From Athalassotoga saccharophila (GTDB lineage: Bacteria > Thermotogota > Thermotogae > Mesoaciditogales > Mesoaciditogaceae): a stretch of 64,000 nt of DNA. The stretch is from NCBI RefSeq assembly GCF_009936215.1, contig NZ_AP019551.1, positions 1,636,708-1,700,707 on the forward strand, written 5' to 3'. This document shows positions 34,259 through 53,809 of this stretch, one piece after another. Each line of letters starts with the position of its first letter. Positions within the stretch are counted from its first letter, which is position 1. The notes under the pieces are model-generated. The model was given only the letters and a program-made list of their open reading frames with translations, ran no database searches and was not told where the DNA came from. A program made the translations under genes and the position numbers.

Positions 34259-34287
34259 TTGATGATGTATGTAAACATATATATAAT
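34259..34287 (+). promoter_or_regulatory. sigma-70-type promoter of the murQ unit
   Basis: TTGATG (34259-34264), a 17-base spacer and a perfect TATAAT (34282-34287). Predicted start near 34294, about 37 bases before the murQ TTG. Confidence 0.7.
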
Positions 34288-34295: not shown

Positions 34296-34311
34296 AGTTG
34301 TATATATAACT
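34296..34311. promoter_or_regulatory. candidate operator at the murQ transcription start
   Basis: AGTTGTATATATAACT is a near-perfect 16-base palindrome (14 of 16 symmetric). Its core TTGTATATATAA differs by one base from TTGTATATACAA, the type of site bound by HutC-class GntR regulators. The only such regulator seen in the island is at 50764-51498. Confidence 0.45.
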
Positions 34312-34330: not shown

Positions 34331-35239
34331 TTGCCTAAATTCGAAGAAATAGAAGCGCTTGAAACGGAGCAATCAAATCCCAAAACCGCAGAAATTGACA
34401 CAATGGATTCCATCGAAATTGCCAAAATCATGAATGATGAAGATAAAACCATAGCGTTGGCCGTGGAAAAAGCACTTGTTCCGATATCCCAACTTGCAGA
34501 AAAGATATCAAACGCAATAAAAAATGGTGGAAGATGTGTATATGTCGGAGCCGGCACCTCCGGTCGTGTTGCTATGATAGATGCGGTTGAGACGGTACCA
34601 ACATTCAATTTACCATTTGGAACGTTTATAACAATCTTAGCCGGAGGACCGGAGGCGATGGTAAGATCGCTTGAAAATGTTGAGGACGATTGGGGAGGTG
34701 GTGCGCAAGAGATTTTGAAAAACAATGTTTCTTCCAAAGATGTGGTGATAGGCATCTCGGCAAGTGGAAGAACGCCTTTTGTAATAGGGGCAATTGAAAA
34801 GGCAAGACAACTTGGGGCATTAACTGGATCTATATCCAACGTTCACAACGCTAAATTGTCTTCTATGGTCGATGTACCGATAGAAGTCGTGACCGGGCCA
34901 GAGGTTGTAACGGGATCAACAAGACTTAAGGCTGGAACGGCACAAAAGATGGTCTTGAACATGTTAAGCACGATCTCGATGATAAAACTTGGCAAGGTTT
35001 ACAAAAATCTCATGGTCGATGTTACTCCAATAAACGAAAAATTAGTCATAAGGGCTATAAACATAATCGTAAGCGCAACGGGCATTTCCAAGTCAAGGGC
35101 GGAAGAATTGCTGAAAGCCTCTGGAATGAGGCCAAAAGTAGCCATAATAATGGCTTTAACCAATTCTTCTGTAAAGAAGGCGGAAGAATTGCTTGAAAAG
35201 AGCGGTGGCAATGTGAGAATGGCTATAAGCAAAGTTTAA
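34331..35239 (+). CDS. murQ: N-acetylmuramic acid 6-phosphate etherase
   Basis: A 302-residue SIS-domain etherase that cleaves MurNAc-6-phosphate to GlcNAc-6-phosphate and D-lactate. MurQ signatures: EQSNPKTAEIDTMDSIEIAKIMN, YVGAGTSGRVAMIDAVE, VVIGISASGRTPFVIGAI, EVVTGSTRLKAGTAQKMVLNMLST and YKNLMVDV. The start is TTG with GGGGAGG eight bases before; the ATG at 34326 is out of frame. It has its own promoter and opens the peptidoglycan-salvage island. Confidence 0.96.
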   Translation: MPKFEEIEALETEQSNPKTAEIDTMDSIEIAKIMNDEDKTIALAVEKALVPISQLAEKISNAIKNGGRCVYVGAGTSGRVAMIDAVETVPTFNLPFGTFITILAGGPEAMVRSLENVEDDWGGGAQEILKNNVSSKDVVIGISASGRTPFVIGAIEKARQLGALTGSISNVHNAKLSSMVDVPIEVVTGPEVVTGSTRLKAGTAQKMVLNMLSTISMIKLGKVYKNLMVDVTPINEKLVIRAINIIVSATGISKSRAEELLKASGMRPKVAIIMALTNSSVKKAEELLEKSGGNVRMAISKV

Positions 35240-35272
35240 TTTTTTATTTTTCACTTGAATGGAGGGATAAAG

Positions 35273-37048
35273 ATGGGTAAAAAGTTTTTAGTAATTATGG
35301 CGATTTTGTCAGTACTTTCTTTTATCGTTTTTGCGGCTTTACCACCGGATCCTTTTACCGAAGCATCTAATCTTTTTCAAGGACCTGGAAAATACGGAGG
35401 AACTTTGTATTTAGTACTTGGCTCTGAACCACAATCTTGGAACTATTACGGGACGTTATCATCGGCAGCCTATACAGTTGATGGCCAACTTTTTAGTCCT
35501 CTTGTTCAGGCCAATCCTATAACAAATGAAGTTGAGCCCGCACTGGCATCAAGTTGGGAAGTCTCTCCTGGAGGAACTGAAGTTATATTCCATCTTCGCC
35601 ATGTTTTGTGGTCAGATGGAGTGCCATTTACAGCCGATGATGTGCTTTTTACTTTTAACGATGTTGTTATGAATAAACATGCATTGGGAAATGAATGGGA
35701 CAGGTTCACAGTCGATGGGACTCCCATTAAATGGATAAAAATAAACGATTATACAGTTGCAGCATTACTTCCGAAACCTTACGGAGCTTTTTTCACAGTT
35801 CTTGAACCAGCATATATCTTGCCAAAGCATATACTTGCCAACTACTTACCTAAATACAATCCAAAAGTTACCGATCCATCTTATTATAACCAGGCTTGGA
35901 CTGTAAATACACCACCAGATCAGATCGTTGGAACAGGACCTTATGTACTTTACAAGTATATCCCGGGTCAGGAAGTTATTTTAAAAAGGAACCCAAATTT
36001 CTGGGAAGTAGACCCATACGGAAATCAACTACCGTACTTTAACGAATTGGACTTTTTAATTGTCAAAGATCCACAAACGCAACTTGCCATGTTCCAGTCT
36101 GGACAAATAAGTTGGCTTGGGATAAGTGCTTCTCAATTTCCATATCTAAAACAAAAGCAATTGGCAGGATCTCCTTTCAGTGTCTACAATACACTTTCAA
36201 GCGGTCAAGCAACCCCACATCCATTTATAACTTTCAATTTTGACGCTAAAAATCCGGATTTAAGATCGCTATTTAGAAATTTACAATTCAGAGAGGCAAT
36301 GGAATACGCCTTAGATAGAAATGAGATAATAAATGAAGTTTATAATGGACTTGCAAATTTTACCGGCGATATACCGGCAGTTCTTCCAGGAAATGTTTTT
36401 TACGATCCTGAGGCATCATCACTTGCAAGAAACTTTAATCTTCAGGCGGCAAATGGCATACTTGATTCTCTTGGACTCAAAATGGGTCCAAATGGGATAA
36501 GGCAATTCCCAGATGGTCAACCTGTGGAATTCAATCTTCTTACATGGAGTAATAGTCCTACAATGTCAGGAATAGCCGTAATATATCAAAAAGATTTACA
36601 GAAAATAGGAATAAAACTAAATCTTCAGATTTTGGATTTGAGTGTTGCGTATCAAATGGCAATGGCTGGAAATTTTGATGCTGCTTTGTTAAGTTGGGGA
36701 GATCAACCCGATCCAGCCTTAAGAACTCCTATTTGGAGTCCAGGATATCCGCTTTACATAGTTCACTTGTCAACTATGGATTCGAAAACACAACAACCTT
36801 TATTTGATCATATGATGTGGTGGGAAAAGATCGTTTACAACGATTTTGCTCAAGGACAAGCCCAGATGACTCTTGCCGAAAGATTAAAGTATTACTATCA
36901 ATGGGAAGAAATTTATGCAACTGAGATTCCATTTATTTTCGTTGCCGTTCCAAATACTCTAATTGCGGTCCAAAATAATATAGGTAACTTCTTTGTAGCG
37001 CCAAATGGTCAACTTGCTTTCACGACTTACACAACATTTTTAAAATGA
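35273..37048 (+). CDS. oligopeptide-type ABC transporter substrate-binding protein
   Basis: A 591-residue family-5 binding protein with signal peptide (MGKKFLVIMAILSVLSFIVFAAL). Signatures: KYGGTLYLVLGSEPQSWNYYG, WEVSPGGTEVIFHLRHVLWSDGVPFTADDVLFTFNDV and GTGPYVLYKYIPGQEVILKRNPNFW. GGAGGGAT sets the ATG at 35273; the TTG at 35255 is in frame upstream. In Thermotogota this family often binds oligosaccharides rather than peptides. Next to murQ, muropeptides or disaccharides are plausible cargo. Confidence 0.9.
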   Translation: MGKKFLVIMAILSVLSFIVFAALPPDPFTEASNLFQGPGKYGGTLYLVLGSEPQSWNYYGTLSSAAYTVDGQLFSPLVQANPITNEVEPALASSWEVSPGGTEVIFHLRHVLWSDGVPFTADDVLFTFNDVVMNKHALGNEWDRFTVDGTPIKWIKINDYTVAALLPKPYGAFFTVLEPAYILPKHILANYLPKYNPKVTDPSYYNQAWTVNTPPDQIVGTGPYVLYKYIPGQEVILKRNPNFWEVDPYGNQLPYFNELDFLIVKDPQTQLAMFQSGQISWLGISASQFPYLKQKQLAGSPFSVYNTLSSGQATPHPFITFNFDAKNPDLRSLFRNLQFREAMEYALDRNEIINEVYNGLANFTGDIPAVLPGNVFYDPEASSLARNFNLQAANGILDSLGLKMGPNGIRQFPDGQPVEFNLLTWSNSPTMSGIAVIYQKDLQKIGIKLNLQILDLSVAYQMAMAGNFDAALLSWGDQPDPALRTPIWSPGYPLYIVHLSTMDSKTQQPLFDHMMWWEKIVYNDFAQGQAQMTLAERLKYYYQWEEIYATEIPFIFVAVPNTLIAVQNNIGNFFVAPNGQLAFTTYTTFLK

Positions 37049-37055
37049 TTTTAAA

Positions 37056-37078
37056 GGGGCGAGTATGATGCTCGCCCC
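37056..37078 (+). terminator. intercistronic hairpin after the binding-protein gene
   Basis: GGGGCGAG (37056-37063) and CTCGCCCC (37071-37078) pair perfectly with a TATGATG loop. No T run follows, and the permease gene begins 28 bases later, so partial termination or mRNA protection is more likely than full termination. Confidence 0.6.
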
Positions 37079-37105
37079 TATGTTCTTTAGAGAAGAGGTG
37101 AAAGA

Positions 37106-38077
37106 ATGCTTTCATATATAATTCGTAGAATACTTATAATGATTCCAATGATGTTTATAATTTCTGTGATATGTTTTACAATTATAAAACTTCAACCTGG
37201 AAGTTATATAAGCCAGTATCTTGAAAATGCGAGAGTTTCTCCTCAAACCGTCATTATGCTGAAACAAACACTCGGGCTTGACAAACCGGCAATAGAACAA
37301 TATTTTTATTGGCTTGGAAATATAATTTTCCATGGCAATTTCGGATATTCATTTGCTTATCAAATGCCAGTTACAGCTCTTATATGGCAATACATGGGAT
37401 GGACAGTTGCTGTATCTTTGCTTTCTATGGCATTCACTTGGCTTATTGCAATTCCACTTGGAATTTACTCTGCACGTCATAGATATGGTGTGGGAGATTA
37501 CACGGCTACTTTTTTGGGGTATATTGGCATGTCAATACCTGATTTTTTCCTTGCATTGCTTTTAATGTATTTGGCTTTATCTTTTGGAAGTAGATCCGTT
37601 GGAGGCCTTTTTTCAGCTCAATATATCGGTGCTCCATGGTCGATGGGAAAATTCATAGATCTATCCAAACATTTGTGGATACCAATGATAGCGATAGGTG
37701 CCGGAGGCATCGGAGGGCTTATGAGGATTATGCGTGGTAACATGATGGATGTGTTGAATTCTCCAATGATTCTATCGTTAAGGGCTCGCGGAATAGGTGA
37801 GAAAAATGTCACATGGAAGCATGCCGTCAAAAATGCAATAAATCCTTTGATAACAATTGCTGGAATGTCTCTACCAGGAGTTTTTAGTTCAACGATAATT
37901 GCTTCTATAGTTTTAAATATACCAACAATGGGTCCTTTTTTCTACAGTGCTCTTCTCAATCATGATCAATACCTTGTTATGGCTTATCTTTTGATGCTTG
38001 CCTTGCTTCTTCAAATTGGTAATTTACTCGCTGATATAGCACTTGCCCTTATAGATCCACGCATAAGATATACATGA
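37106..38077 (+). CDS. oligopeptide-type ABC transporter permease (DppB/OppB)
   Basis: A 323-residue permease with six helices: MLSYIIRRILIMIPMMFIISVICFTIIKLQPGS at the N-terminus, LGLDKPAIEQYFYWLGNIIFHGNFGYSF, and the EAA-like loop LRARGIGEKNVTWKHAVKNAINPLI. AAGAGGTGA precedes the ATG. It forms the channel with the DppC-type partner, which starts ten bases on. Confidence 0.93.
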   Translation: MLSYIIRRILIMIPMMFIISVICFTIIKLQPGSYISQYLENARVSPQTVIMLKQTLGLDKPAIEQYFYWLGNIIFHGNFGYSFAYQMPVTALIWQYMGWTVAVSLLSMAFTWLIAIPLGIYSARHRYGVGDYTATFLGYIGMSIPDFFLALLLMYLALSFGSRSVGGLFSAQYIGAPWSMGKFIDLSKHLWIPMIAIGAGGIGGLMRIMRGNMMDVLNSPMILSLRARGIGEKNVTWKHAVKNAINPLITIAGMSLPGVFSSTIIASIVLNIPTMGPFFYSALLNHDQYLVMAYLLMLALLLQIGNLLADIALALIDPRIRYT

Positions 38078-38087
38078 GGTGAAGCAC

Positions 38088-39203
38088 ATGAAAAAGGATA
38101 CTGAAATAAAGAAAGAAGAAACAGACTTTCAAAGAATGTGGAAAGTACTTACAAAAAATCCTTTTGGTGTGGCGGGAATGGTAATACTTATAATCATGTA
38201 TCTAATGACACTTTTTGCCCAATTTATATCTCCTTATAATTTCACAGATTTACATTCAAAATATACTTATCTCCCTCCCACTCCCATACATTGGATTGAT
38301 TCCGAAGGTCATTTTCATATAATTCCTTTTGTTTATGGAATAAAAGAGGAAAGAAATCCGGTAACTTATGCCATGGAGTACGTAGTCGACAAGCAAGAGA
38401 TATACCCAATACATCTATTTGTGCAAGGTGAGAGTTATAGTTTTCTCGGATTATTTAAAACAAACGTACATCTATTCGGTATAAATCGAGATGCTCATGG
38501 AATGCTTGCGCTTTTTGGTACAGATCAATACGGAAGAGATCTCTTTTCACGCACAATAGTGGGAGGACAGGTATCGATGACAGTTGGACTCCTGGGAATA
38601 GCAATAAGTTTTGCAATAGGAATAGTAATAGGTTCCTTATCTGGTTTCATAGGAGGAACTTTTGATCTTATAATACAAAGGCTTATAGAGGTTTTAATGT
38701 CCTTTCCGACATTACCATTATGGCTTGCCTTAAGTATGATAATTCCCCCAAGTTGGCCATCAACATGGGTTTACTTTGGCATAGTGACCGTACTTTCCGT
38801 TTTGGGATGGACAGGCCTTGCAAGAGTTATAAGAGGAATGACTCTTAGCATAAAGGAAAAAGACTTTATTTCAGCGGCAAAACTTGCAGGGCAGACTAAA
38901 TTGAAAATAATAATACACCATATTTTACCTAACATAATGTCTTACGTTATAGTGGTTGCAACATTATCTATTCCAGGAATGATTTTAGCTGAAAGTGCTA
39001 TGAGCTTTTTAGGACTCGGTATAAAGGAACCTATGACAAGTTGGGGCTTATTGTTAAGTAGCGCTGAAAGCCTTGAATCGATAGAACTTCACCCTTGGTT
39101 TTTAATACCGGGAATATTCATAATAGTTGCTGTGCTATCATTTGTTTTTGTTGGAGATGCACTGAGAGATGCGTTTGATCCATATCAATATGAAAGAAAG
39201 TAG
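38088..39203 (+). CDS. oligopeptide-type ABC transporter permease (DppC/OppC)
   Basis: A 371-residue permease. After the first helix (FGVAGMVILIIMYLMTLFAQFISPY) there is a long periplasmic insert of about 90 residues, then ALFGTDQYGRDLFSRTIVGGQVSMTVGLLG and the EAA loop SAAKLAGQTKLKIIIHHILPNIMSYV. It is longer than usual DppC (about 300) because of the insert, which may touch the binding protein. TGAGGTGA favours the ATG at 38088 over the GTG at 38079. Confidence 0.92.
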   Translation: MKKDTEIKKEETDFQRMWKVLTKNPFGVAGMVILIIMYLMTLFAQFISPYNFTDLHSKYTYLPPTPIHWIDSEGHFHIIPFVYGIKEERNPVTYAMEYVVDKQEIYPIHLFVQGESYSFLGLFKTNVHLFGINRDAHGMLALFGTDQYGRDLFSRTIVGGQVSMTVGLLGIAISFAIGIVIGSLSGFIGGTFDLIIQRLIEVLMSFPTLPLWLALSMIIPPSWPSTWVYFGIVTVLSVLGWTGLARVIRGMTLSIKEKDFISAAKLAGQTKLKIIIHHILPNIMSYVIVVATLSIPGMILAESAMSFLGLGIKEPMTSWGLLLSSAESLESIELHPWFLIPGIFIIVAVLSFVFVGDALRDAFDPYQYERK

Positions 39204-39211
39204 GATATGTT

Positions 39212-40201
39212 ATGACATTACTTGAAATCAAAAATCTTACAATTACCTTCAAAACGAGTAATGATAGTCTGATAGCTGTTGATAACGTTTCTTTTCATGT
39301 TGACAAGGGAGAAACAGTTGGAATAGTTGGCGAAACCGGATCTGGCAAAACAATAACTTCTTTGTCTATAATGAGATTACTTCCTTCTAACGCCAAAGTA
39401 TCCGGAGAGATCTTTTTCAACGGAAAAGATCTGCTCAAAATTTCTGAAAAAGAAATGGACGAAATAAGGGGAAAAAAAATATCAATGATATTTCAAGAGC
39501 CAATGACGGCTTTTGATCCACTATATACGATAGGGGATCAATTTTCTGAGGTGTTATTTAAGCATGAAAATGTAAGTAAGTTGGAAGCAAAGAAAAGATC
39601 TATCGAAATGTTAAAACTTGTCGGAATACCAGAACCAGAAAAGCGCTTTTATCAATACCCTCATGAATACAGTGGTGGAATGATACAAAGGGCGATGATA
39701 GCACTTGCTTTACTTACAAATCCAGAACTTGTCATAGCAGATGAACCGACAACGGGACTTGATGTTACAATCCAAATGCAAGTTTTAAATCTCATCAAAA
39801 GAATTCAAAGATCATCTAATCTTTCTATGATATTCATAACCCACGACCTTGGAGTAATATCTAAAATGGCAAACAGAATTATTGTCTTATACCTTGGAAA
39901 AATATTTGAGGTTGGGAGCGTCAAAGATGTCATTTTTTCTTCAGTTCATCCTTATACAAAGGGGTTAATAGCCTCTGTACCAACGTTGAAAACCAGTAAA
40001 TCTCAAAAACTCTATTCGATTCCGGGAAATGTACCTTCATTGAAAGAAATAAAAAGTGGATGCAGATTTTATTCCCGCTGCCCAGTTAGAATGGATATAT
40101 GCAAAGATAATGATCCAAAACTTTTTGAATATACTCCGGGTCATTTTGTATCATGCTGGGCCGTTGATCCAAATAGGAATCTGGTGAATACTTATGAATG
40201 A
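39212..40201 (+). CDS. oligopeptide-type ABC transporter ATPase (DppD/OppD)
   Basis: A 329-residue ATPase: Walker A GETGSGKT, Q-loop FQEPMTAFDP, signature YSGGMIQR, Walker B LVIADEPTTGLDV, switch His in THDLG. The C-terminal oligopeptide domain contains the Cys cluster CRFYSRCPVRMDIC that in this family holds an iron-sulfur centre. It powers the importer with its DppF partner, whose start overlaps by eight bases. Confidence 0.94.
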   Translation: MTLLEIKNLTITFKTSNDSLIAVDNVSFHVDKGETVGIVGETGSGKTITSLSIMRLLPSNAKVSGEIFFNGKDLLKISEKEMDEIRGKKISMIFQEPMTAFDPLYTIGDQFSEVLFKHENVSKLEAKKRSIEMLKLVGIPEPEKRFYQYPHEYSGGMIQRAMIALALLTNPELVIADEPTTGLDVTIQMQVLNLIKRIQRSSNLSMIFITHDLGVISKMANRIIVLYLGKIFEVGSVKDVIFSSVHPYTKGLIASVPTLKTSKSQKLYSIPGNVPSLKEIKSGCRFYSRCPVRMDICKDNDPKLFEYTPGHFVSCWAVDPNRNLVNTYE

Positions 40202-41195
40202 AAATATAATAAAAATAGATAACTTGAAAGTATATTTTCCAATCAGACGTGGGATTTTTCTTCAGACTTTCGGTTATATAAAAGCAATTGATGGTATTAA
40301 TATCGAGATAAATAAAAATCAGGATATCTCTGTGGTTGGAGAAAGCGGAAGCGGAAAAACAACGCTTGGTAAGTCAATGGTTGGTCTTATAAAACCTACA
40401 GGTGGAAAAATTCTCTATAATTTTAACGGAAAAACGTTTGATATGTCCAAACAATTACCAATAGATGTAAGGCAAAGTATCCAAATGATTTTTCAAGATC
40501 CATTTTCTTCGCTTAATCCAAGGTTGAAAATCATAGATACTTTGAAAGAACCTCTTGAAATAAGAAAACTTTTTAGATCAAAAAAAGAAATGATTGATTA
40601 TCTTGGAGAACTTCTCGAAAAGGTAGGACTTAAACGTGAACACTTATACAGATATCCACATGAATTCAGTGGAGGCCAAAGACAAAGGATTTCCATTGTT
40701 AGGGCAATTTCCATGAAACCAAATGTAATCGTTCTCGATGAACCAACATCTTCTTTAGATGTTTCAGTTCAATCTCAGGTTTTAAATTTACTTCAAGATA
40801 TAAAGAAAGAGTATAATTTAACTTATGTTTTTATAACTCACAACATTTCTGTTGCAAAGTATATGGGACAAAAGATAATTGTCATGTATTTAGGGAAGAT
40901 CGTCGAGATAAATGACGCAGATAAGTTAATAGAAAAACCTTTCCATCCTTACACACAATTATTGTTGTCTACGGTAGTCGAAATTAAGTCAGAACATGCT
41001 GAAAAAGAGGTAAAAATAGGTGAACCCCCAAGTCCGGTAAATATACCGTCTGGTTGTAGATTCAGAACAAGGTGCCCCTTTGCGATGGAAATATGTGCAA
41101 AAAAAGATCCTCCACTTAGCGATCATGAAGGATCTCTTGTAGCATGTCATTTGTACTCTAATCAGAAAAAAGAGATTTCAGTCAATAATTCTTGA
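40194..41195 (+). CDS. oligopeptide-type ABC transporter ATPase (DppF/OppF)
   Basis: A 333-residue ATPase: Walker A GESGSGKTT, Q-loop FQDPFSSLNPR, signature FSGGQRQR, Walker B VIVLDEPTSSLDV, switch THNIS. The C-terminal domain has CRFRTRCPFAMEIC. It is the last gene of the five-gene AT-rich transporter set. A TATACT box lies just after its stop, so the next gene probably has its own promoter. Confidence 0.94.
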   Translation: MNENIIKIDNLKVYFPIRRGIFLQTFGYIKAIDGINIEINKNQDISVVGESGSGKTTLGKSMVGLIKPTGGKILYNFNGKTFDMSKQLPIDVRQSIQMIFQDPFSSLNPRLKIIDTLKEPLEIRKLFRSKKEMIDYLGELLEKVGLKREHLYRYPHEFSGGQRQRISIVRAISMKPNVIVLDEPTSSLDVSVQSQVLNLLQDIKKEYNLTYVFITHNISVAKYMGQKIIVMYLGKIVEINDADKLIEKPFHPYTQLLLSTVVEIKSEHAEKEVKIGEPPSPVNIPSGCRFRTRCPFAMEICAKKDPPLSDHEGSLVACHLYSNQKKEISVNNS

Positions 41196-41203
41196 AGTTA
41201 TAG

Positions 41204-41209
41204 TATACT
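41204..41209 (+). promoter_or_regulatory. -10 box upstream of the leader ORF and MFS gene
   Basis: TATACT at 41204-41209 lies within the palindrome AGTATACT. The -35 region 17 bases before it (GTCAAT) is poor, so the promoter may need an activator or may be weak. Confidence 0.35.
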
Positions 41210-41266
41210 GAAACAGGCGTATATAAAAAAGAATTCTAATTTTTGAAATAGAAAGGAGTGTTCTAA

Positions 41267-41317
41267 ATGAAAAGGGTTTTGTTATTCATCATCTTTAATT
41301 TAAGGAGGTTAAAATGA
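41267..41317 (+). CDS. 16-residue leader peptide coupled to the MFS gene
   Basis: The ORF reads MKRVLLFIIFNLRRLK and has a strong GAAAGGAG site eight bases before its ATG. Its TGA stop overlaps the ATG of the transporter gene (AAAATGA), and the transporter ribosome site AAGGAGG lies inside the ORF, where it encodes the two adjacent Arg codons AGG AGG. This is the layout of a translational-coupling or attenuation leader. The first residues also look like the start of a signal peptide, so a remnant of a lost binding-protein gene is possible. Confidence 0.45.
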   Translation: MKRVLLFIIFNLRRLK

Positions 41318-42618: not shown

Positions 42619-42780
42619 AAGTCCGAATTTAGAAAGGATGGAACCATCAAGGTCTTCAGAGGTTTCTGAACTTGTCAATAGGGTATTTCAATGAGAATAA
42701 ATTTTCTCTTTGTTAAAAGACAAATGCCCATGATATTTGTTTATTGAGGAAAGTAAAAAGCCATTATCGAGAGGGGTAAT

Positions 42781-43917: not shown

Positions 43918-43920
43918 TGT

Positions 43921-45243: not shown

Positions 45244-45255
45244 GGAGGGTAAAAA

Positions 45256-46956
45256 ATGAAGAAAGTATCTGTGTTCCTTGCTTTGGCGGTATTACTTGCA
45301 TTTTCGATCTTCGCGTCTAGCTGGATGTTAGATCAAACCACAGGCGGGATCATGCCGACAGACAGTTCTTACAAATACGGAGGAACCGTCGTCGTTGTTA
45401 ACTCAGGGTTACAAACTCCATTTAGCATCAATCCATTGTCTCCTCAGGCACAGTTGCCGGTCGTTCCCGAGATTTACGAATCTCTTTTCTACATAAACAC
45501 GATAAGTGGCGAGATAACGCCGCTTCTTGGTGTAAATTACAAATGGGAAGATAACAATTTGAAACTCGTCGTTAAAGTAAGAGATGGCGTCAAATGGTCA
45601 GATGGAACGCCATTTACCGCGAATGATGTGGCCTTTACATTTAACCTTGTCAAAAAATACCCTTCATTTGACACGAGCGGTCTTTGGAAAAATTCAGGTC
45701 TCAAAAGTGTAGAGGCATCCGGCGATACCGTCGTGTTCAATTTCGACAAGCAAAATACGCCTTTGTTTTTGAACATAGCAAGCCAGTACATAGTGCCCGA
45801 ACATATATGGTCAAACATAAAAGACCCTACAACATTTACAAACACGACAAATCCCGTCGGAACTGGACCATTTTTGTTCAAAAGTTATTCTCCAGACAAT
45901 CAAACGACGATCATAGTTAAAAATCCAAATTACTGGATGAATGGTAGACCTTACGTTGATGAGGTAGAAATACAAAATGTCAATTCGAACAACACAACCC
46001 TTCTTATGATGCTAAAACACGAGGCAGACTGGGGATCTTCCTATTTTCCGGATATAATGAACATATGGGTGAACAAAGATCCACAAACAAACAAAATCTA
46101 CTGGCCGGTTAACAATTTCAACGCGCTCTATCTCAATACCCAGAAATCTCCATTTGACAATCCGGTCTTTAGAAAGGCAATTTCAATCGCCATAGACAAA
46201 AATGATCTCGAACAGAAAGCATATTTCGGAATAGGTGGCGTTGCCAACCCAACCGGCATTGTTCCGGCCCAACTTAAGGAATGGTTAGATCCAACCTTGA
46301 CGGCTCTTGCGTCTGAATTGAACACTTACGATCCACAAAAGGCCCAGACATTACTCGCATCGATAGGATTTACAAAGAATTCGGCCGGACAACTCACAGA
46401 TCCAAATGGAAAAGTATTGCCAACATTCAAGATCCTTGTCGGTGCCGGCTGGACCGACTTCATAACGCAGGCGCAGATAATTTCCGAAAACCTTTCGAAA
46501 CTTGGGATAAGCACGATCATAGATCAGGCTCCATGGTCTGCTTACATTTCATCTTTAATGAGCGGAACGTATGACATGGCGATATGCTGGGGAGTTTCAG
46601 GTCCAACGCCTTATTACGTCTATTACCAAAGATTAAATCCAGCCTTCTCAGCCTCAAAGATCGGCGAATCGGCCCTTTCAGATTACTCAAGGTACACGAA
46701 TCCTCTAATAACGAATGCGCTTGAAGTTTACGCAAGTACAAGCGATTTGAGACTTCAAAAGCAGGCAATGTATACGATAGAGCGAATAGTGCTCGATGAT
46801 GTACCATTCATCCCTCTAACAAATAGAACAAACTTTTCAAATTTCAGTGCCGCAAAATTCGTGGGATGGCCTTCAGATTCTAATCCATATTGTGCCGGTG
46901 GAGCGACGAATGGACAGGGTGGAGAGATCATACTTTTGAATATTCATCTAAAATAG
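45256..46956 (+). CDS. second oligopeptide-type ABC substrate-binding protein (no permeases of its own)
   Basis: A 566-residue family-5 binding protein with signal peptide (MKKVSVFLALAVLLAFSIFA). Signatures: KYGGTVVVVNSG, VRDGVKWSDGTPFTANDVAFTFNLV and GTGPFLFKSYSPDNQTTIIVKNPNYW. AAGGAGGG sits before the ATG. No permease gene is next to it, so it probably shares the importer at 37106-41195 and widens its substrate range. Base composition matches the salvage enzymes rather than the AT-rich transporter. Confidence 0.9.
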   Translation: MKKVSVFLALAVLLAFSIFASSWMLDQTTGGIMPTDSSYKYGGTVVVVNSGLQTPFSINPLSPQAQLPVVPEIYESLFYINTISGEITPLLGVNYKWEDNNLKLVVKVRDGVKWSDGTPFTANDVAFTFNLVKKYPSFDTSGLWKNSGLKSVEASGDTVVFNFDKQNTPLFLNIASQYIVPEHIWSNIKDPTTFTNTTNPVGTGPFLFKSYSPDNQTTIIVKNPNYWMNGRPYVDEVEIQNVNSNNTTLLMMLKHEADWGSSYFPDIMNIWVNKDPQTNKIYWPVNNFNALYLNTQKSPFDNPVFRKAISIAIDKNDLEQKAYFGIGGVANPTGIVPAQLKEWLDPTLTALASELNTYDPQKAQTLLASIGFTKNSAGQLTDPNGKVLPTFKILVGAGWTDFITQAQIISENLSKLGISTIIDQAPWSAYISSLMSGTYDMAICWGVSGPTPYYVYYQRLNPAFSASKIGESALSDYSRYTNPLITNALEVYASTSDLRLQKQAMYTIERIVLDDVPFIPLTNRTNFSNFSAAKFVGWPSDSNPYCAGGATNGQGGEIILLNIHLK

Positions 46957-46980
46957 ATATGGGGGCTATCCCCCATATCT
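46955..46980 (+). terminator. intercistronic hairpin after the second binding-protein gene
   Basis: AGATATGGGGG and CCCCCATATCT form a perfect 11-pair stem with a CTAT loop, starting within the stop codon. Only TT follows, then AAAAAGAGG, the nagZ ribosome site. It is the third binding-protein gene in the window with such a hairpin. Confidence 0.65.
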
Positions 46981-46997
46981 TTAAAAAGAGGTGCAAT

Positions 46998-48578
46998 ATG
47001 TCTGAAAAAGTTGAAAATCTTTTAAAGTCTATGAGTAACGAAGAAAAGATAGGACAGATAATGATATGCGGCTTTGATGGCAAAAATCCTTCCGAAAACA
47101 TACAAAAACTTATAAAAAATTACCATTTGGGAAATGTCATTCTTTTCAAAAGAAATATAGAAAGCCCAGATCAGGTTAAAAAATTAACATCAGAATTGCA
47201 ACGCATGTCGAAGATTCCACTCACGATAGCAGTTGATCAGGAAGGTGGGATAGTCACGCGTCTGACAGAACCATTTACGGTCTTTCCGGGCAACATGGCA
47301 ACGGCCGCAACTAATGATCCACACAACGCGTATTTAACAGGACTTGTTATGGCAAAAGAGATGCGTGCCGTAGGGATCAACTGGAATCTTGCACCGGTCG
47401 TCGATGTGAATGATCTGCCAGAGAATCCCGGCATAGGCGTTAGGAGTTATTCGGACGATCCGAGAATCGTTGCAAGATATGCATCTGAATTCGTGAGAGG
47501 ATTGCACGACGGCCATGTGGCGGCATGTGCAAAACATTTTCCCGGTAAAGGACACAGCGCAAAGGATGCACATTTTGAAATGCCTGTTGTAAACAGAGAA
47601 TTGGACGATCTTGTAAGGATAGAACTTTATCCATTCAAAGAATTGGTAAGAGACGGTATCGATTCGATAATGCCGTCCCACGTTTATTATCCGGCACTTT
47701 GTGAAAGTGAAATTCCGGCAACGCTTTCTCATGCCGTTATGACAGGGCTTCTTAAAAAAGAGATGAATTTCGATGGCGTAACCGTTACAGACGATCTTGA
47801 GATGGGAGGAATAACGACAAATCTTGAACCATCTGAAGCCGCGTGGAGATCCTTGATGGCAGGCGCCGACATGATTATGATCTGCCACACCTTCGAAAAG
47901 CAGATAGGATCAATCGAGAATTTGATCCAAATGGTCAAATTCGGTGATATCCCCATCGAAAGACTAAATGATGCTGTCAGACGCGTATTGAATATGAAGG
48001 AAAATCTTGGTCTTTTAGATGGACAGATCGTGATAGACTCCACGATAGGATCTAAAGAAAATTCGGACATCGCATACGGTATAGCAAAAAAATCAGTAAC
48101 GCTTGTCAGAAACATGGATAGTTTGATCGAAAAAATCCCAAATTCAAAGATCTTTTTGATCTTTCCAAAAGATCTTGCACTTACAAACGTTGAAGAAAAT
48201 GCCGGAGGCATGTCTGAAATAGAAAAACTATTCAAAGAAAAGGGAAAAGGCATAGAAAGTCTTTACGTTTCTTCAAAGCCCAGCGAGTCCGAGATAGAAG
48301 AGGTTACCAAAAAAATTAGCAATTTCAACGGCATCGTCATCATCGGTACGTTAAACGCTCATCTAATAGCGGAGTGGAAAAAACTGGTAAACGCCGTCAT
48401 GAATGTGCGAAATGACAATGTCCTTATCCTTGCCCTTAGAAACCCGTACGATTGTGTTATGGACGGTGTCAGAAATTCAGTCGCACTTTACAGTTATTCG
48501 AAGGTTTCTCAAAGGGCCTTTTCCGAGATGGTTTTGAGTGGTGAAAGATTTACCGGAAAGGCTCCGGTGAAATTATGA
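46998..48578 (+). CDS. nagZ: beta-N-acetylglucosaminidase NagZ, GH3 (two-domain)
   Basis: A 526-residue GH3 enzyme that removes GlcNAc from GlcNAc-(anhydro)MurNAc muropeptides. The catalytic Asp-His dyad is Asp190-His192 in KHFPGKGHSAKDAHFEMP, and the nucleophile is in TDDLEM (264-269). The usual KHFPGHG reads KHFPGKG here. Residues about 350-526 form the extra C-terminal domain seen in Bacillus NagZ but not in E. coli NagZ. There is no signal peptide, so it is cytoplasmic. AGAGGTG sets the ATG at 46998; the upstream frame belongs to the preceding gene region. Confidence 0.94.
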   Translation: MSEKVENLLKSMSNEEKIGQIMICGFDGKNPSENIQKLIKNYHLGNVILFKRNIESPDQVKKLTSELQRMSKIPLTIAVDQEGGIVTRLTEPFTVFPGNMATAATNDPHNAYLTGLVMAKEMRAVGINWNLAPVVDVNDLPENPGIGVRSYSDDPRIVARYASEFVRGLHDGHVAACAKHFPGKGHSAKDAHFEMPVVNRELDDLVRIELYPFKELVRDGIDSIMPSHVYYPALCESEIPATLSHAVMTGLLKKEMNFDGVTVTDDLEMGGITTNLEPSEAAWRSLMAGADMIMICHTFEKQIGSIENLIQMVKFGDIPIERLNDAVRRVLNMKENLGLLDGQIVIDSTIGSKENSDIAYGIAKKSVTLVRNMDSLIEKIPNSKIFLIFPKDLALTNVEENAGGMSEIEKLFKEKGKGIESLYVSSKPSESEIEEVTKKISNFNGIVIIGTLNAHLIAEWKKLVNAVMNVRNDNVLILALRNPYDCVMDGVRNSVALYSYSKVSQRAFSEMVLSGERFTGKAPVKL

Positions 48579-49624
48579 AAAGAATCGATGAGATCTTTGC
48601 TGAGGCGATAAAAAGTGGCACATTTCCGGGAGGGGTCCTACTTGTTGGCGATCACGAAAAGGTGATCTTTGAAAAATCTTACGGTACTTTGTCCAAAGAT
48701 TCAAAAGAGCCTGTTTCAAATGACACGATATACGATCTTGCATCTATGACAAAGGTTGTGGCAACAACTCCCGCGATAATGAAGTTAATCGAAGATGGAA
48801 ATTTACGCCTATACGATCCGATAAGTTTGTTTTTGGATGAATTCAAAACGGACGAGAAAAAAGAAATAAGGATCTTTCATCTTCTTACACACACATCTGG
48901 ACTCCCGTCTTATTCCGAAGGATGGAAGTATACCCGAGGAAAAGATTTGATGAAGGTTATAAATTCAACGCCCCCGATAAATCCTGTAGGGTCAAAGTAC
49001 CTGTACTCATGTCTCAATTTCATAACCTTAATGGAAATAATCGAGATGGTAAGCGGGAGAAGATTTGACGAATTTACAAGATCTGAAATCTTCGAGCCTC
49101 TCGATATGTTTCATACAGCCTTCAGACCACCAAAGGACTGGAAAATAGCGCCAACGTCCCAAAGAGATGGAAGAACTTTGCAAGGCGATGTCGATGATGA
49201 ACTTGCCTATTATCTTGGAGGGATAAGCGGCAATGCCGGACTTTTTTCAAATGTGACGGACCTTTACAATTACGCAAAGATGTACCTTAACCAGGGCAAA
49301 CACAAAGATCGAAAGATCTTTTCCAAAGAAACGATAGAGTCTTTCACGTGCGAGGCTTTCAACGATGGCCAGAATCGCAGAACTTTGGGATGGGACATGA
49401 AAGGTTTCGCATGCTCTTGCGGTGATCTGATGACAAAATATGCCTTCGGTCATACGGGCTTTACTGGCACATCTATATGGATAGATCCACGAATAGACAT
49501 AGCGGTAATTCTACTCACAAACAGGGTAAACATCTCAAGAAGGGAAAATCAGGACAAGATAATAAGATTCAGGCCACTACTTCATAATTACATCGTCGCA
49601 AATAGGGGGTCTTTGGGTGAATGA
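48575..49624 (+). CDS. AmiE-like serine amidase (class C beta-lactamase family)
   Basis: A 349-residue serine hydrolase. The SxxK motif is Ser57-Met-Thr-Lys60, the second motif is Tyr144-Ser-Cys (YxN position), and HTGFTG replaces KTG. In B. subtilis the related AmiE (YbbE) removes the peptide from MurNAc in the same operon as NagZ, NamZ and MurQ, and the neighbours here are the same. No signal peptide is seen. Its ATG overlaps the nagZ stop and it overlaps anmK by eight bases. Other esterase or D-peptidase roles remain possible. Confidence 0.8.
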   Translation: MKRIDEIFAEAIKSGTFPGGVLLVGDHEKVIFEKSYGTLSKDSKEPVSNDTIYDLASMTKVVATTPAIMKLIEDGNLRLYDPISLFLDEFKTDEKKEIRIFHLLTHTSGLPSYSEGWKYTRGKDLMKVINSTPPINPVGSKYLYSCLNFITLMEIIEMVSGRRFDEFTRSEIFEPLDMFHTAFRPPKDWKIAPTSQRDGRTLQGDVDDELAYYLGGISGNAGLFSNVTDLYNYAKMYLNQGKHKDRKIFSKETIESFTCEAFNDGQNRRTLGWDMKGFACSCGDLMTKYAFGHTGFTGTSIWIDPRIDIAVILLTNRVNISRRENQDKIIRFRPLLHNYIVANRGSLGE

Positions 49625-50753
49625 GATAGATGTGCTTGTGGAAACTTTGAAAAAACCTGAAAGGAAAATTCTCGGTATGATGTCTGGAACGTCGGCCGAT
49701 GGTGTCGATCTGGTATTGACTATAGTTAACGGATGTGGCAGATCGACGAAATGCTCCGTCGAAAGGGCCGAACATTTTGATTATCCAGATGATCTGAAAA
49801 GAGAAATTCTTGACTCCATGAAGGTAAAGGCCTTGATGAGAGACGTATGTGTGCTTGATTTCAAAGTTGGAGAATTTTTCGGCGATTGTGCGAAAAAATT
49901 TCTTGGAGATGAAAAAATAGATCTTATAGCAAGTCACGGCCAAACGATTTTTCATAATCCTCCGAGCAGATCATCTCATCCATGCACACTTCAAATCGGG
50001 GATGGCGACATAATAGCGATGAGATCTGGAGTTATAACGGTCTCAGATTTCAGAATAAAGGATATCGAGGCCGGAGGAGAGGGAGCGCCTTTAGTCCCAC
50101 ATGTCGATTACATACTTTATTCAAGAGAAAATGAATCGATATCTCTTAACAATTTGGGCGGCATCTCAAATCTTACCTATATTCCAAAAGGCGCAGATGA
50201 AGAAGATATTTTAGCCTTTGATACGGGGCCGGCAAATGCCTTGATAGATTTAGTCGTAAGAAGGTACTTTGATCAGCCTTACGACAAAGATGGCATCTTG
50301 TCGTCAAAGGGAAAGGTAAATACATCACTTTTAGAATTTCTTAAATCCAAAGAAAAGGATTACCTTTTGAAAAAACCTCCAAAATCGACGGGAAAGGAAG
50401 TGTACAACGAAGATTACCTTCCCACTCTTTCTCTTGATCCGGCCGATATTTTGAGGACCGTTGTGGAGTTTACATCCTGGAGCATATACGAGTCTTACAA
50501 AATGTACGTTATACCTAATGGCCTTGACAGAGTTATCCTGACTGGTGGCGGATGTATGAACAAAACGCTTGTCGAATCGTTAAGAAGGTATTTTGGAAAG
50601 ATTCCCGTCGAGATAGCAATTGATTGGCAATGGAGAGAGGCAAAGGCCTTTGCGATTTTGGCAAATGAACTTTTTTGCGGTAAACCCGCGAATGATCCCA
50701 AGGTTACAGGCGCAAAATCAAAAGTTTTGCTCGGTAAAATTTCATTACCATGA
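49617..50753 (+). CDS. anmK: anhydro-N-acetylmuramic acid kinase
   Basis: A 378-residue AnmK that opens and phosphorylates 1,6-anhydroMurNAc to MurNAc-6-phosphate, the substrate of MurQ. Signatures: GMMSGTSADGVDLVL (phosphate binding and catalytic Asp), SHGQTIFH, VSDFRIKDIEAGGEGAPLVPHVDY, LNNLGGISNLTYI and TGGGCMNKTL. The start is GTG inside the amiE-like gene. Its presence implies lytic-transglycosylase products are recycled. Confidence 0.95.
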   Translation: MNEIDVLVETLKKPERKILGMMSGTSADGVDLVLTIVNGCGRSTKCSVERAEHFDYPDDLKREILDSMKVKALMRDVCVLDFKVGEFFGDCAKKFLGDEKIDLIASHGQTIFHNPPSRSSHPCTLQIGDGDIIAMRSGVITVSDFRIKDIEAGGEGAPLVPHVDYILYSRENESISLNNLGGISNLTYIPKGADEEDILAFDTGPANALIDLVVRRYFDQPYDKDGILSSKGKVNTSLLEFLKSKEKDYLLKKPPKSTGKEVYNEDYLPTLSLDPADILRTVVEFTSWSIYESYKMYVIPNGLDRVILTGGGCMNKTLVESLRRYFGKIPVEIAIDWQWREAKAFAILANELFCGKPANDPKVTGAKSKVLLGKISLP

Positions 50754-50763
50754 AGGTGGTAAA

Positions 50764-51498
50764 ATGAAAATAGACAGAAAGGATCCAACTCCCATTTACC
50801 ATCAAATATACATGGATTTAAAGAAAAAAATAGAAAAAGATTTCAAACCCGGTGAATCTCTCCCTCCAGAAGAAGAACTTGCAAAGATTTACGGTGTAAG
50901 CAGACTTACAGTCAGGCAATCTTTAAAAAATCTTTTGGAAGATGGATTAATAGAAAAACAAAGGGGAAGAAGATCAAGAATAGCCGAAGGAAAAAATATA
51001 CAAAATCTCTCTGAATTGCGCGGATTTACCCAGGAGGCATTATTGTTAGGTCATACTCCTTCTTCGATTGTCATCGCAAATAAATTGGTCAATGTCCCCG
51101 AAAACATAGCGGAAAGATTCAGAATCAGGACCGGCACAAAGGTCATATTTCTAAATAGGTTAAGATTGCTTGATGGCGTTCCCTATGCTATAGAGTTCAC
51201 TTACGTGAATATATCGATCGACTTCAAACTTTTAGATATCCTCGATATGGACATGTCCAAATCCTCTCTTTACAACTTTTTCCGGGAAAATGCCGGTATA
51301 AAACTCGAATATGCCGATGAAACGATAGAGGTTGTTCAGGCAAGTGGAGAAAATGCGAAATTGTTAGGAATTCAAAATGGAAGTTGTATCCTGCTCAGGA
51401 ACAGATATACATATACCTCTAACGGTGATTGCATAGAATACGTTCAATCTTATTACAGAGGAGACAAATACAAATTCACGGTAAGAATAAGATCCTAA
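50764..51498 (+). CDS. GntR-family regulator, HutC/NagR subfamily
   Basis: A 244-residue regulator: winged HTH at residues 8-72 (PIYHQIYMDLKKKIEKDFKPGESLPPEEELAKIYGVSRLTVRQSLKNLLEDGLIEKQRGRRS in outline) and a UTRA ligand-binding domain after residue 90 (FLNRLRLLDGVPYAIEFTYVN). The Bacillus homologue NagR (YvoA) responds to GlcN-6-P or GlcNAc-6-P. Here it is the likely regulator of the island, with a candidate site at the murQ promoter. AAGGTGGT sets the ATG at 50764; a long upstream in-frame extension lies inside anmK. Confidence 0.9.
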   Translation: MKIDRKDPTPIYHQIYMDLKKKIEKDFKPGESLPPEEELAKIYGVSRLTVRQSLKNLLEDGLIEKQRGRRSRIAEGKNIQNLSELRGFTQEALLLGHTPSSIVIANKLVNVPENIAERFRIRTGTKVIFLNRLRLLDGVPYAIEFTYVNISIDFKLLDILDMDMSKSSLYNFFRENAGIKLEYADETIEVVQASGENAKLLGIQNGSCILLRNRYTYTSNGDCIEYVQSYYRGDKYKFTVRIRS

Positions 51499-51510
51499 GG
51501 AGATGAAAAG

Positions 51511-52404
51511 ATGATAGCGGTGGGAATAGATGGAGGAGGGTCAAAGACAGAATTTTGCCTGTATGACGGAAGAATAATAAGGTCTATTTTGATAGAAGAG
51601 CCTTCGAATTACCATCTTGTCGGTATAGAAAAGGTGAAAGAGGTCATATCGCGGGGAATAAAAAAGGTATCGGAAGGATATACCTTTGACGTCGTTGGAG
51701 CGGGATTGAGCGGCGTTGACAGGGAGGCGGACAAAAAACAAATAGAAAGAATTTTCAAAGAGATAGGAATAAAAAATTTCTTCATTCAAAATGATGGCAT
51801 TGCCGCATTGTGGGGTGCGACAGGCGGAACGGGTATACTTCTCATAGCCGGAACTGGATCGATAGTCGTCTCAAGAAATGAAGACGGAGAGATAAACAGG
51901 GCCGGAGGGTGGGGATATGCCTTTGATGAATATTGTGGAGGATACTGGTTTGTCACACAAGCGATAAAGCATCTTTTGGATTACAGGGACAGAGGAATAT
52001 ACATCCCGTTCGGAGAAGAGTTGACGAGATTTTTTGGATTCGAAAGGGTTGAGGATCTTATATACCTTTATTATTCCGGAAATTTCGATAAATCAAGGAT
52101 ATCTTCGGCCGTTAGCATCGTTTTTCAAGCGGCAGAAAGAGGTGAAGAATTACCGCTTTTAATATTGAAAGAAGGCCTCGAAAATGTGATGCGCATGATA
52201 GGAATCGTCAAAAAGCGTGGAAGGTTCAGAGAAGATTTCACCTTCTCCTACACCGGCGGGCTTTTCAAGTCCGAATACTTTCTCAAAAGATTCAAGAGGG
52301 TCTTTGAAGTGTACTTCCCAAAGGCAATATTTTTAAGTCCTCAAAATAGTCCCGCTGTGGGATCGGCAATAATGGCAATCTATGAAATGGAGAGAAGGAA
52401 ATGA
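51511..52404 (+). CDS. BadF/BcrA-type aminosugar kinase (GlcNAc/MurNAc kinase)
   Basis: A 297-residue ASKHA kinase: phosphate-1 GIDGGGSKTEFCLYD, GAGLSGVDREADKK, phosphate-2 LLIAGTGSIVVSR, GGWGYAFDEYCGG. It belongs to the BadF group that includes GlcNAc kinases and Clostridium MurK, which phosphorylates both MurNAc and GlcNAc. Next to NamZ and NagZ it would turn the released sugars into GlcNAc-6-P and MurNAc-6-P. AAGGAGA precedes the ATG; the stop overlaps the next start (ATGA). Confidence 0.85.
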   Translation: MIAVGIDGGGSKTEFCLYDGRIIRSILIEEPSNYHLVGIEKVKEVISRGIKKVSEGYTFDVVGAGLSGVDREADKKQIERIFKEIGIKNFFIQNDGIAALWGATGGTGILLIAGTGSIVVSRNEDGEINRAGGWGYAFDEYCGGYWFVTQAIKHLLDYRDRGIYIPFGEELTRFFGFERVEDLIYLYYSGNFDKSRISSAVSIVFQAAERGEELPLLILKEGLENVMRMIGIVKKRGRFREDFTFSYTGGLFKSEYFLKRFKRVFEVYFPKAIFLSPQNSPAVGSAIMAIYEMERRK

Positions 52405-53387
52405 AAGAAAATGAATTTTTTGAAAAGGTAAATTCTTTACTCGATAAAAGACTGTGCGCTTACGGATTTAAAATAATTCACGAAGGCCAATTCAGAGTAA
52501 TTGGCTTTATAGACACAAAAGATTCGATGAACCTTTTAATTCAAAATTTTAAAGATATAATCTTCGATCTTACAATACTCGATGAGACGATTCCTTTCCA
52601 AATCAGATATGGGGTTGTAAATATCCCGGTAATCGATATGAGGCGAGACCCTCGCTTTAGAAGCGAACGTATTCACCAGTTGATCTTTGGAGAGATCGTA
52701 AAGATCCTAAGATTTGAGAATGAATATATTCTGGTAAAGGACATAAGAACAAACTATACAGGGTATATAAAGGGATCTCAAATCGATCTCATATCTTTCG
52801 ATCAAATCGAAAAAATGAAGAACGAGTTCGAAGAAGGAGTTGTGAGTGAAAGATTTGCACGGGTAAAGTGTGGTAATGATGAATTTTTTGTGCCATTTGG
52901 ATCGAGGATTCCCGGTCACAAGATCGGTAACAAATGGAAGGGAATGATCGGAGATAAAAGGGTTGAATGTCAATTCACAGACGTAAAGGTCCAGCGATCT
53001 TTTAAAGACATTGAAGAAAAATGGATCCTGTTTTTAGGCACACCTTATTTGTGGGGGGGCGCCTCCTCTTACGGTTATGACTGCTCCGGATATGTCGGGA
53101 GGCTTTACGATTATGCCGGAATAAAGATTCCGCGCGATGCCGATCTTCAGCAGAGATTTTCTTTAGAAATAGAAGAAAAAGATCTGAGATTTGGCGATCT
53201 TATCTTCTTTCCGGGCCATGTTGGAATGTACGTAGATGGACGGATGGTTCATGCGAATCTCACACAGGGTGGAGTCGGGATTTCACACATAACAGATCCT
53301 TCCAACGATTACGAAGAAGATTTGAGAAAGAGTATTTTAAAATTCGGAAGGATACATTCTACAAATATTAAAGAATTTGACTTTTGA
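52401..53387 (+). CDS. NlpC/P60 endopeptidase, YkfC-like
   Basis: A 328-residue protein with SH3-like domains over residues about 60-190 and a C-terminal NlpC/P60 domain: Cys in SYGYDCSGYVGRLYDYAG, His in FFPGHVGMYV, then MVHANLTQGGV. The layout and the lack of a signal peptide match cytoplasmic YkfC, which cuts gamma-D-Glu-diaminopimelate in recycled stem peptides. It overlaps the kinase by four bases and is the last gene of the salvage run. A promoter for the ribosomal operon lies at its stop codon. Confidence 0.87.
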   Translation: MKENEFFEKVNSLLDKRLCAYGFKIIHEGQFRVIGFIDTKDSMNLLIQNFKDIIFDLTILDETIPFQIRYGVVNIPVIDMRRDPRFRSERIHQLIFGEIVKILRFENEYILVKDIRTNYTGYIKGSQIDLISFDQIEKMKNEFEEGVVSERFARVKCGNDEFFVPFGSRIPGHKIGNKWKGMIGDKRVECQFTDVKVQRSFKDIEEKWILFLGTPYLWGGASSYGYDCSGYVGRLYDYAGIKIPRDADLQQRFSLEIEEKDLRFGDLIFFPGHVGMYVDGRMVHANLTQGGVGISHITDPSNDYEEDLRKSILKFGRIHSTNIKEFDF

Positions 53388-53494: not shown

Positions 53495-53809
53495 ATGTAC
53501 GCCATACTCGAAATAGGGGGGAAGCAGTACAAAATCTCAGAGGGAGAGGCTTTCAAGACCGAACTCGTCAAGAATGCCAAAGAGGGTGAACAAATAGTTA
53601 TCGACAAAGTTTTAGCGGTAAAGGACGATAAAGATCTCAAGATAGGCTCTCCTTACCTCGAAGGCGCGAAGGTTACGGCCACACTTGTTGAAAATGGCAG
53701 ATACAAAAAGGTCATAACTGTCAAGTTCAGAAGAAGAAAAGGCTATCGAAGGGTCAAAAATCACAGACAATGGTATTCTTTGCTAAAAGTTGAAAAGATC
53801 GAAGCATGA
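53495..53809 (+). CDS. rplU: 50S ribosomal protein L21
   Basis: A 104-residue L21: MYAILEIGGKQYKISEGE at the start, VTVKFRRRKGYRRVKNHRQ (23S rRNA binding) and YSLLKVEKI at the end. AAAGGAGGTG precedes the ATG. The stop overlaps the prp start. This gene begins the conserved rplU-prp-rpmA order. Confidence 0.97.
   Translation: MYAILEIGGKQYKISEGEAFKTELVKNAKEGEQIVIDKVLAVKDDKDLKIGSPYLEGAKVTATLVENGRYKKVITVKFRRRKGYRRVKNHRQWYSLLKVEKIEA

Follow-up and report, generated by a model that had tools for sequence, protein, structure and literature searches.

Which task could be shared by 16 genes that follow one another on the + strand of a Thermotogota contig, mostly abutting or overlapping, and that encode enzymes of cell-wall sugars, a YkfC-like peptidase, a transglutaminase-fold protein and an importer? 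These genes occupy positions 34331-53387 (about 19 kb) of the window, the whole stretch of 64,000 nucleotides analysed here (G000:C1:1636708-1700707), in a genome of 2.04 Mb in three contigs with an estimated completeness of 91.6%. The host is a thermophilic, Mesoaciditoga-like bacterium of the Thermotogota; among named organisms, Mesoaciditoga and other members of the Mesoaciditogaceae stand nearest to it, and its transglutaminase-fold protein is 87% identical to the copy of Mesoaciditoga sp. ARK-11. Judged from gene content and sequence relatives, the island is very probably an operon-like set for the salvage of peptidoglycan fragments, which would be taken apart in the cytoplasm. It contains the following genes, in which MurNAc and GlcNAc stand for N-acetylmuramic acid and N-acetylglucosamine:

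34331..35239, + strand: murQ, MurNAc-6-phosphate etherase (TIGR00274, 343.8 bits, cut-off 302)
35273..37048, + strand: substrate-binding protein 1 of an ATP-binding cassette (ABC) importer, secreted (SBP_bac_5, hydrophobic N-terminus)
37106..38077, + strand: ABC permease B, Opp4B-like (BPD permease)
38079..39203, + strand: ABC permease C, Opp4C-like (BPD permease)
39212..40201, + strand: ABC ATPase D (oligo_HPY)
40194..41195, + strand: ABC ATPase F (oligo_HPY)
41314..42618, + strand: major facilitator superfamily (MFS) carrier (Sugar_tr / MFS_1), also beside namZ in the own-genus loci L034 and L035
42781..43917, + strand: namZ, exo-beta-N-acetylmuramidase family, without signal peptide (NamZ_N and NamZ_C, full length)
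43921..45243, + strand: transglutaminase-fold protein, proposed cytoplasmic wall-peptide hydrolase (Transglut_core PF01841, 3.8e-24)
44854-44856, 44956-44958 and 45004-45006, + strand: codons of its catalytic triad, Cys312, His346 and Asp362
45256..46956, + strand: substrate-binding protein 2, secreted (SBP_bac_5, hydrophobic N-terminus)
46998..48578, + strand: nagZ, two-domain GH3 N-acetylglucosaminidase, without signal peptide (PRK05337, 240 bits, cut-off 207)
48575..49624, + strand: AmiE/PBP4B-like protein of the beta-lactamase fold (PF00144), proposed MurNAc-L-Ala amidase
49617..50753, + strand: anmK, anhydro-MurNAc kinase (AnmK model, 393.5 bits, cut-off 387; solved AnmK relative)
50764..51498, + strand: GntR/UTRA regulator, HutC-type (GntR and UTRA domains)
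51511..52404, + strand: BadF-family sugar kinase, MurK/NagK-like (BcrAD_BadFG; best PDB match 8zo3)
52401..53387, + strand: YkfC-like NlpC/P60 gamma-D-Glu-diamino acid endopeptidase, without signal peptide (NLPC_P60, weak SH3)

Profile searches place every gene named in the original prediction at the coordinates and on the strand given there, each within the family assigned to it. The coordinates hold except for three starts taken from the longest open reading frames, which are replaced by the likely starts of the first binding protein (35273), NagZ (46998) and the GntR regulator (50764). The claim that the enzyme set of B. subtilis is here extended by AnmK, a sugar kinase and a stem-peptide endopeptidase agrees with family and closest-structure matches alike. 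NamZ, 38-77% identical to 16 Thermotogota homologues, has its best PDB match in 4k05 (E 3.7e-70), and NagZ matches 6k5j (E 1.6e-97) and the B. subtilis NagZ/YbbD structure 3bmx (E 1.8e-73). The best NCBIfam model of the AmiE-like protein is PBP4B, under its cut-off; an SxxK motif (S57 and K60), Y144-S-C and HTG are invariant in 14 homologues, and it is proposed to be an N-acetylmuramyl-L-alanine amidase from its broad PF00144 fold and its context. The best solved relative of the BadF kinase is the MurNAc/GlcNAc kinase 8zo3 (E 2.6e-29), with the catalytic Asp (xND) and GGWG aligned. A study of the T. forsythia kinase names the positions at which space is left for the lactyl group (PMC10465942). 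Near them the BadF protein has a glycine-rich AGGWG stretch, and an Asn precedes its catalytic Asp; from these features a dual MurNAc/GlcNAc kinase is more likely than one restricted to MurNAc.

The NlpC/P60 protein has its best matches in 3h41 (BcYkfC) and in 3npf and 3pvq (DPP VI, dipeptidyl-peptidase VI). Among the residues examined, taken from the definition of the YkfC subfamily (PMC2954226), D227-C228, H273 and H284 (a Cys-His-His triad with Asp before Cys) are invariant in four homologues, and R245-D246 aligns with R255-D256 of BcYkfC, where Asp256 recognizes free L-Ala. The protein should act on peptides whose L-Ala is free, and hence downstream of an amidase.

Export-signal-like hydrophobic N-termini are present only in the two substrate-binding proteins, the permeases and the MFS carrier being membrane proteins; in a hydropathy check, made without a trained predictor, none was seen in NamZ, the transglutaminase-fold protein, NagZ, the AmiE-like protein, AnmK, the BadF kinase or the NlpC/P60 protein. 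The hydrolases and kinases of the island are thus predicted to be cytoplasmic, so that they would meet their substrates there and import of glycan-bearing fragments would be required. The lack of export signals and the closest solved relatives of the BadF kinase, the NlpC/P60 protein and NagZ both fit the earlier proposal that imported wall fragments are dismantled inside the cell. A second part of that proposal, the replacement of the phosphotransferase system (PTS) carrier MurP by ABC and MFS carriers, agrees with the lack of any PTS_EIIC match in the 91.6% complete genome. Since the search gave no PTS EIIC gene, a kinase is needed, as it is in the murTKQ system of T. forsythia (PMC5790795).

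In the route that these assignments suggest, GlcNAc-MurNAc(-peptide) pieces would be bound by one or both secreted binding proteins and enter through the Opp-type ABC complex. NagZ would then remove GlcNAc and NamZ MurNAc, both from non-reducing ends, and the AmiE-like enzyme would free the stem peptide from MurNAc. MurNAc-6-phosphate (MurNAc-6-P) could arise in two ways: by phosphorylation of MurNAc by the BadF kinase, which would also accept GlcNAc, or from anhydro-MurNAc by AnmK, for which an SLT transglycosylase encoded elsewhere in the genome is a potential source. MurQ would split MurNAc-6-P into GlcNAc-6-phosphate (GlcNAc-6-P) and D-lactate, and NagA (G000:C1:1226512-1227498) and one of the NagB candidates, all encoded elsewhere, would feed the sugar onward. 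In the peptide branch the YkfC-like enzyme would cut gamma-D-Glu from the diamino acid, the transglutaminase-fold protein may be one more cysteine hydrolase that acts on wall peptides, and L-Ala-D-Glu would be converted by a dipeptide epimerase encoded elsewhere (G000:C1:1834090-1835109); the epimerase gene has a sugar-type ABC importer and a class IV aminotransferase as neighbours.

The best evidence that importer and enzymes work together is their recurrent clustering. NamZ was found in 52 of the 103 Thermotogota genomes searched. Among 40 NamZ-centred stretches from other Thermotogota, 23 contain at least one of murQ, nagZ, amiE, anmK and badF, and five contain all of them; a control sample consists of 20 stretches with the transglutaminase-fold gene at their centre, of which 13 belong to families other than that of the window, and these 13 contain none of the five genes, so that the clustering exceeds chance. 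The gene set namZ-nagZ-murQ-gntR-badF beside an Opp operon with the binding-protein-1 type is shown by L047, L049, L050, L056, L057, L061, L066 and L067, and this type of binding protein recurs at NamZ loci of several families; other stretches show a sugar-type ABC importer beside namZ. NagA joins the cluster in L045, L046, L049 and L050. A search of other Thermotogota for the same gene order had been proposed as a check: the gene content recurs, but the order is reshuffled between families. This clustering of NamZ across the phylum makes the island a phylum-wide variant of the known MurQ-type wall recycling, not peculiar to this genome.

The NamZ loci show several further neighbours. A gene encoding a GNAT acetyltransferase, missing in the window, lies directly before namZ in L034:8686-9699, L035:17821-18858 and L063:1204-2232, in L034 and L035 after the MFS gene; we take it to recall the glucosamine N-acetyltransferase of C. 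acetobutylicum. In other Mesoaciditogaceae this place is held by a gene for a PHP-domain-like protein, recognized by eye (L036:8651-9592, L037, L064:671-1609). Family f8 (L051, L052, L053, L054, L055, L062, L072 and L073) shows a DUF362/ferredoxin-type protein, also recognized by eye, directly 3' of namZ, and in most cases a sugar-type ABC importer before it. Genomes of genus g13 (G022, G023, G024 and G026-G029) have namZ twice, with a sugar ABC importer next to the first copy and a different context for the second (e.g., L047 and L048).

Most parts of the island have precedents. The B. subtilis cluster murQ-murR-murP-amiE-nagZ-namZ(ybbC) likewise joins MurQ, NamZ and a two-domain NagZ, together with the PF00144 protein AmiE, of which the island has a candidate counterpart (PMC5061867). 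There, MurP imports and phosphorylates MurNAc under the control of MurR, an RpiR-SIS regulator, and muropeptides are broken down extracellularly by NagZ and AmiE (PMC5061867); the island instead shows Opp-type ABC and MFS carriers, a regulator with GntR and UTRA domains, NagZ and AmiE-like proteins without export signals, and, in addition, the BadF kinase, AnmK and the YkfC-like peptidase. The murTKQ system of Tannerella forsythia (PMC5790795) is also a PTS-free MurNAc route of transporter, MurNAc kinase and MurQ, but its sodium symporter MurT takes up free MurNAc, whereas the island combines ABC and MFS carriers with glycosidases predicted to be intracellular. MurK of C. acetobutylicum is reported to be a MurNAc/GlcNAc kinase for wall sugars (Reith et al., 2011, cited in PMC5790795), and the comparison with the island covers its kinase type. 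Import of whole muropeptides into the cytoplasm by an ABC importer with a dedicated binding protein, similar to that proposed here, is known from YejBEF-YepA of Agrobacterium (PMC9790009), a member of a different phylum; the island's permeases and ATPases score nearer to Opp/Dpp-type models than to Yej (microcin C) models. In the literature searched, no paper describes peptidoglycan recycling in Thermotogota as such, and it is unusual there for one cytoplasmic PTS-free island to combine all of these parts.

Rival readings concern the importer, the origin of the fragments and the kinase. The importer could serve general peptide or oligosaccharide uptake while the enzymes recycle the cell's own fragments, which would enter through a different transporter, for instance the MFS protein: the SBP_bac_5 family is broad and its ligands are not readable from sequence, the ABC subunits score below every specific Opp cut-off, and in many relatives a sugar-type ABC importer holds the same spot beside namZ. 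This is improbable, however, given that the importer is embedded between murQ and namZ and that the system with the binding-protein-1 type recurs beside namZ-nagZ-murQ-gntR-badF in several Thermotogota families. Predation on, or scavenging of, foreign walls rather than recycling of the own wall would fit the two binding proteins, the complete catabolic equipment down to GlcNAc-6-P and amino acids and the neighbouring arabinan-type catabolic cluster of the - strand, but it is rather unlikely, as the island contains no secreted muramidase or amidase, and AnmK and the SLT transglycosylase fit own-wall turnover. Cytoplasmic salvage would also change in detail if the BadF protein phosphorylated GlcNAc only, MurNAc-6-P then arising solely through AnmK from anhydro-muropeptides, with the MurNAc released by NamZ as a minor side route. 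The Asn before the catalytic Asp (QND) is found in GlcNAc kinases and is Thr in T. forsythia MurK, and there is a weak NagK match; yet the solved homologue nearest to it phosphorylates both MurNAc and GlcNAc and shares its GGWG and xND motifs, and in the absence of both a MurNAc kinase and a PTS the MurNAc that NamZ releases would have no way to MurQ, so we consider this unlikely. Several points count against cytoplasmic salvage as set out above. PF00144 also covers esterases and peptidases, and the YxN motif of the fold is YSC in the AmiE-like protein; the BadF protein lies far under the NagK equivalog cut-off, and GlcNAc-only use is possible; the conserved SH3b Tyr (Tyr118) of the YkfC subfamily is present in the YkfC-like protein (NYTGY) and aligned with a tyrosine of 3npf, but two of four close relatives have Phe there; and an S66 LD-carboxypeptidase has no match in this genome, although at 91.6% completeness absences are not final.

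The least-known part of the island, and most likely the place of new biology, is the transglutaminase-fold protein, of about 440 residues, in which C312, H346 and D362 are invariant in 24 homologues. Its structure model (mean predicted local distance difference test, pLDDT, 92.8) matches best, in the catalytic half, the putative cysteine protease 3isr (Z 20.1, root-mean-square deviation 3.2, 254 residues); TgpA gives Z 10, and the pseudomurein endoisopeptidases PeiW (Z 8.3) and PeiP (Z 8.2) give middling scores, far under that of 3isr. The transglutaminase-like superfamily also includes hydrolases, such as PeiW and PeiP. The N-terminal residues 1-145, modelled alone (pLDDT 88.9), have no PDB match at E <= 0.001, and a viral fold library gave nothing informative beyond the pseudomurein endoisopeptidase of phage psiM2 (E 0.022).

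Among 71 Thermotogota genomes with a clear copy of this gene, 70 contain the dipeptide epimerase, which in 44 lies directly downstream on the same strand, at a distance of 8-69 bp; the L118 epimerase is in essence the enzyme of T. maritima whose structure is PDB 2zad. In the literature searched, no paper combines a transglutaminase with a dipeptide epimerase. L152 shows an RpiR regulator, an Opp importer, the transglutaminase-fold protein, the epimerase and a class IV aminotransferase. This order follows the same logic as ykfABCD of B. subtilis, which lies beside dppB-E and joins a YkfC-type endopeptidase, a dipeptide epimerase and an Opp/Dpp importer (PMC2954226), with the transglutaminase-fold protein in the place of YkfC; in Mesoaciditoga both are present, with the epimerase encoded elsewhere. 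The gene is part of the muropeptide island in Mesoaciditoga-like genomes and G015, and in G006 and G007 it follows genes encoding a DAP (diaminopimelate)-epimerase-family protein, an M55 D-aminopeptidase and an S66 LD-carboxypeptidase. It is placed between an NlpC/P60 gene (after Opp genes) and a DAP decarboxylase gene in L202 (Firmicutes), precedes DAP decarboxylase and DAP epimerase genes in L188, and in Sedimentibacter-like genomes is often found one or two genes downstream of MurA. These counts are not independent events, since related genomes share contexts by descent. In Marinitoga lauensis (L194) the transglutaminase-fold and epimerase genes both appear split, and the copy at G040:C13:33187-34521 has many in-frame stops; either decay or sequencing error would account for them.

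The neighbouring wall-peptide genes in separate lineages lead us to propose a wall-peptide hydrolase, and for a further cytoplasmic cysteine hydrolase of this kind, predicted from sequence and context, the chances are about even. Equally balanced is the wider proposal that the protein founds a new cytoplasmic family of murein-peptide hydrolases across Thermotogota, Firmicutes and other phyla, which would work with the Opp importer, epimerase, LD-carboxypeptidase and D-aminopeptidase; its target would be the bond between gamma-D-Glu and the diamino acid (the YkfC/MpaA step) or else the isopeptide bond of cross-links. Somewhat less probable, but a serious competitor, is a general role in the cytoplasm, as a peptidase or an enzyme that modifies proteins, with an incidental place in the island. 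In several Mesoaciditogaceae (L107-L110) the gene lies among unrelated genes, and homologues occur in DHVE2/Aciduliprofundum archaea beside genes resembling those of the homoaconitase small subunit and homoisocitrate dehydrogenase; archaea should lack murein, which limits the wall-peptide proposal. The T. maritima epimerase prefers, and is highly active on, L-Ala-D/L-Phe, Tyr and His (PMC5808125), substrates that are not wall-specific, so that the link to the epimerase is no proof of wall peptides. Against a general role stand the immediate operon neighbours in separate lineages: the epimerase, S66, M55 and DAP-epimerase-family proteins, DAP decarboxylase, MurA, NlpC/P60 and Opp proteins. The archaeal homologues (L158, L161, L166, L176, L179 and L184) are about 40% identical, with metabolic gene neighbours in several cases.

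Two simpler roles of the transglutaminase-fold protein were rejected. A role as plain YkfC substitute is not supported, as 31 of the 71 genomes also contain a YkfC-like protein and both tend to co-occur; in Thermotoga itself, where neither YkfC-like nor S66 matches were found, such a substitution may apply. Nor is the protein a general LdcA replacement, as an S66 gene adjoins its gene in G006 and G007.

The GntR-UTRA protein is likely the repressor of the island. Four non-coding elements may contribute to expression:

34259..34287, + strand: candidate island promoter TTGATG-17-TATAAT (consensus scan, 10/12)
34297..34310, strand not assigned: candidate GntR operator GTTGTATATATAAC, a near-palindrome just 3' of the -10
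37055..37079, + strand: strong stem-loop in the gap between binding protein 1 and the permease (11 pairs, 7 G-C)
46955..46980, strand not assigned: strong stem-loop between binding protein 2 and nagZ (11 pairs)

The stretch around the candidate promoter is conserved upstream of murQ in L104, and total matches of the promoter and terminator scans are at the level of shuffles. L036 and L106 have related near-palindromes, TTGTACATACAA and TTATACATACAA, in the corresponding position ahead of murQ, where TTGTAYATAYAA-like sites occupy this murQ-upstream position. The operator pattern has one exact match in the genome, equal to the control level, and the site is therefore a lead only; through such a site the GntR-UTRA protein would repress the island. 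A stem-loop after a binding-protein gene is a common arrangement that yields more binding protein than permease.

Divergent from murQ, positions 28169-33866 of the - strand contain an ordinary arabinan-type catabolic set, with a sugar ABC importer, an ArfA-like arabinosylfuranosidase, an L-arabinose-isomerase-family protein and a LacI regulator. Downstream of the island, positions 53495-54395 contain rplU, a small open reading frame similar to Prp, the ribosomal-processing protease, and rpmA; the rpmA product shows an N-terminal extension that, by eye, we take to be of the kind removed by Prp in Firmicutes.

The island would thus give the Thermotogota a concrete cytoplasmic PTS-free salvage pathway, testable with heat-stable enzymes. 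Within it, the transglutaminase-fold protein represents an unstudied, widespread enzyme family, encoded beside the well-known T. maritima dipeptide epimerase, and is a candidate for a missing wall-peptide hydrolase.

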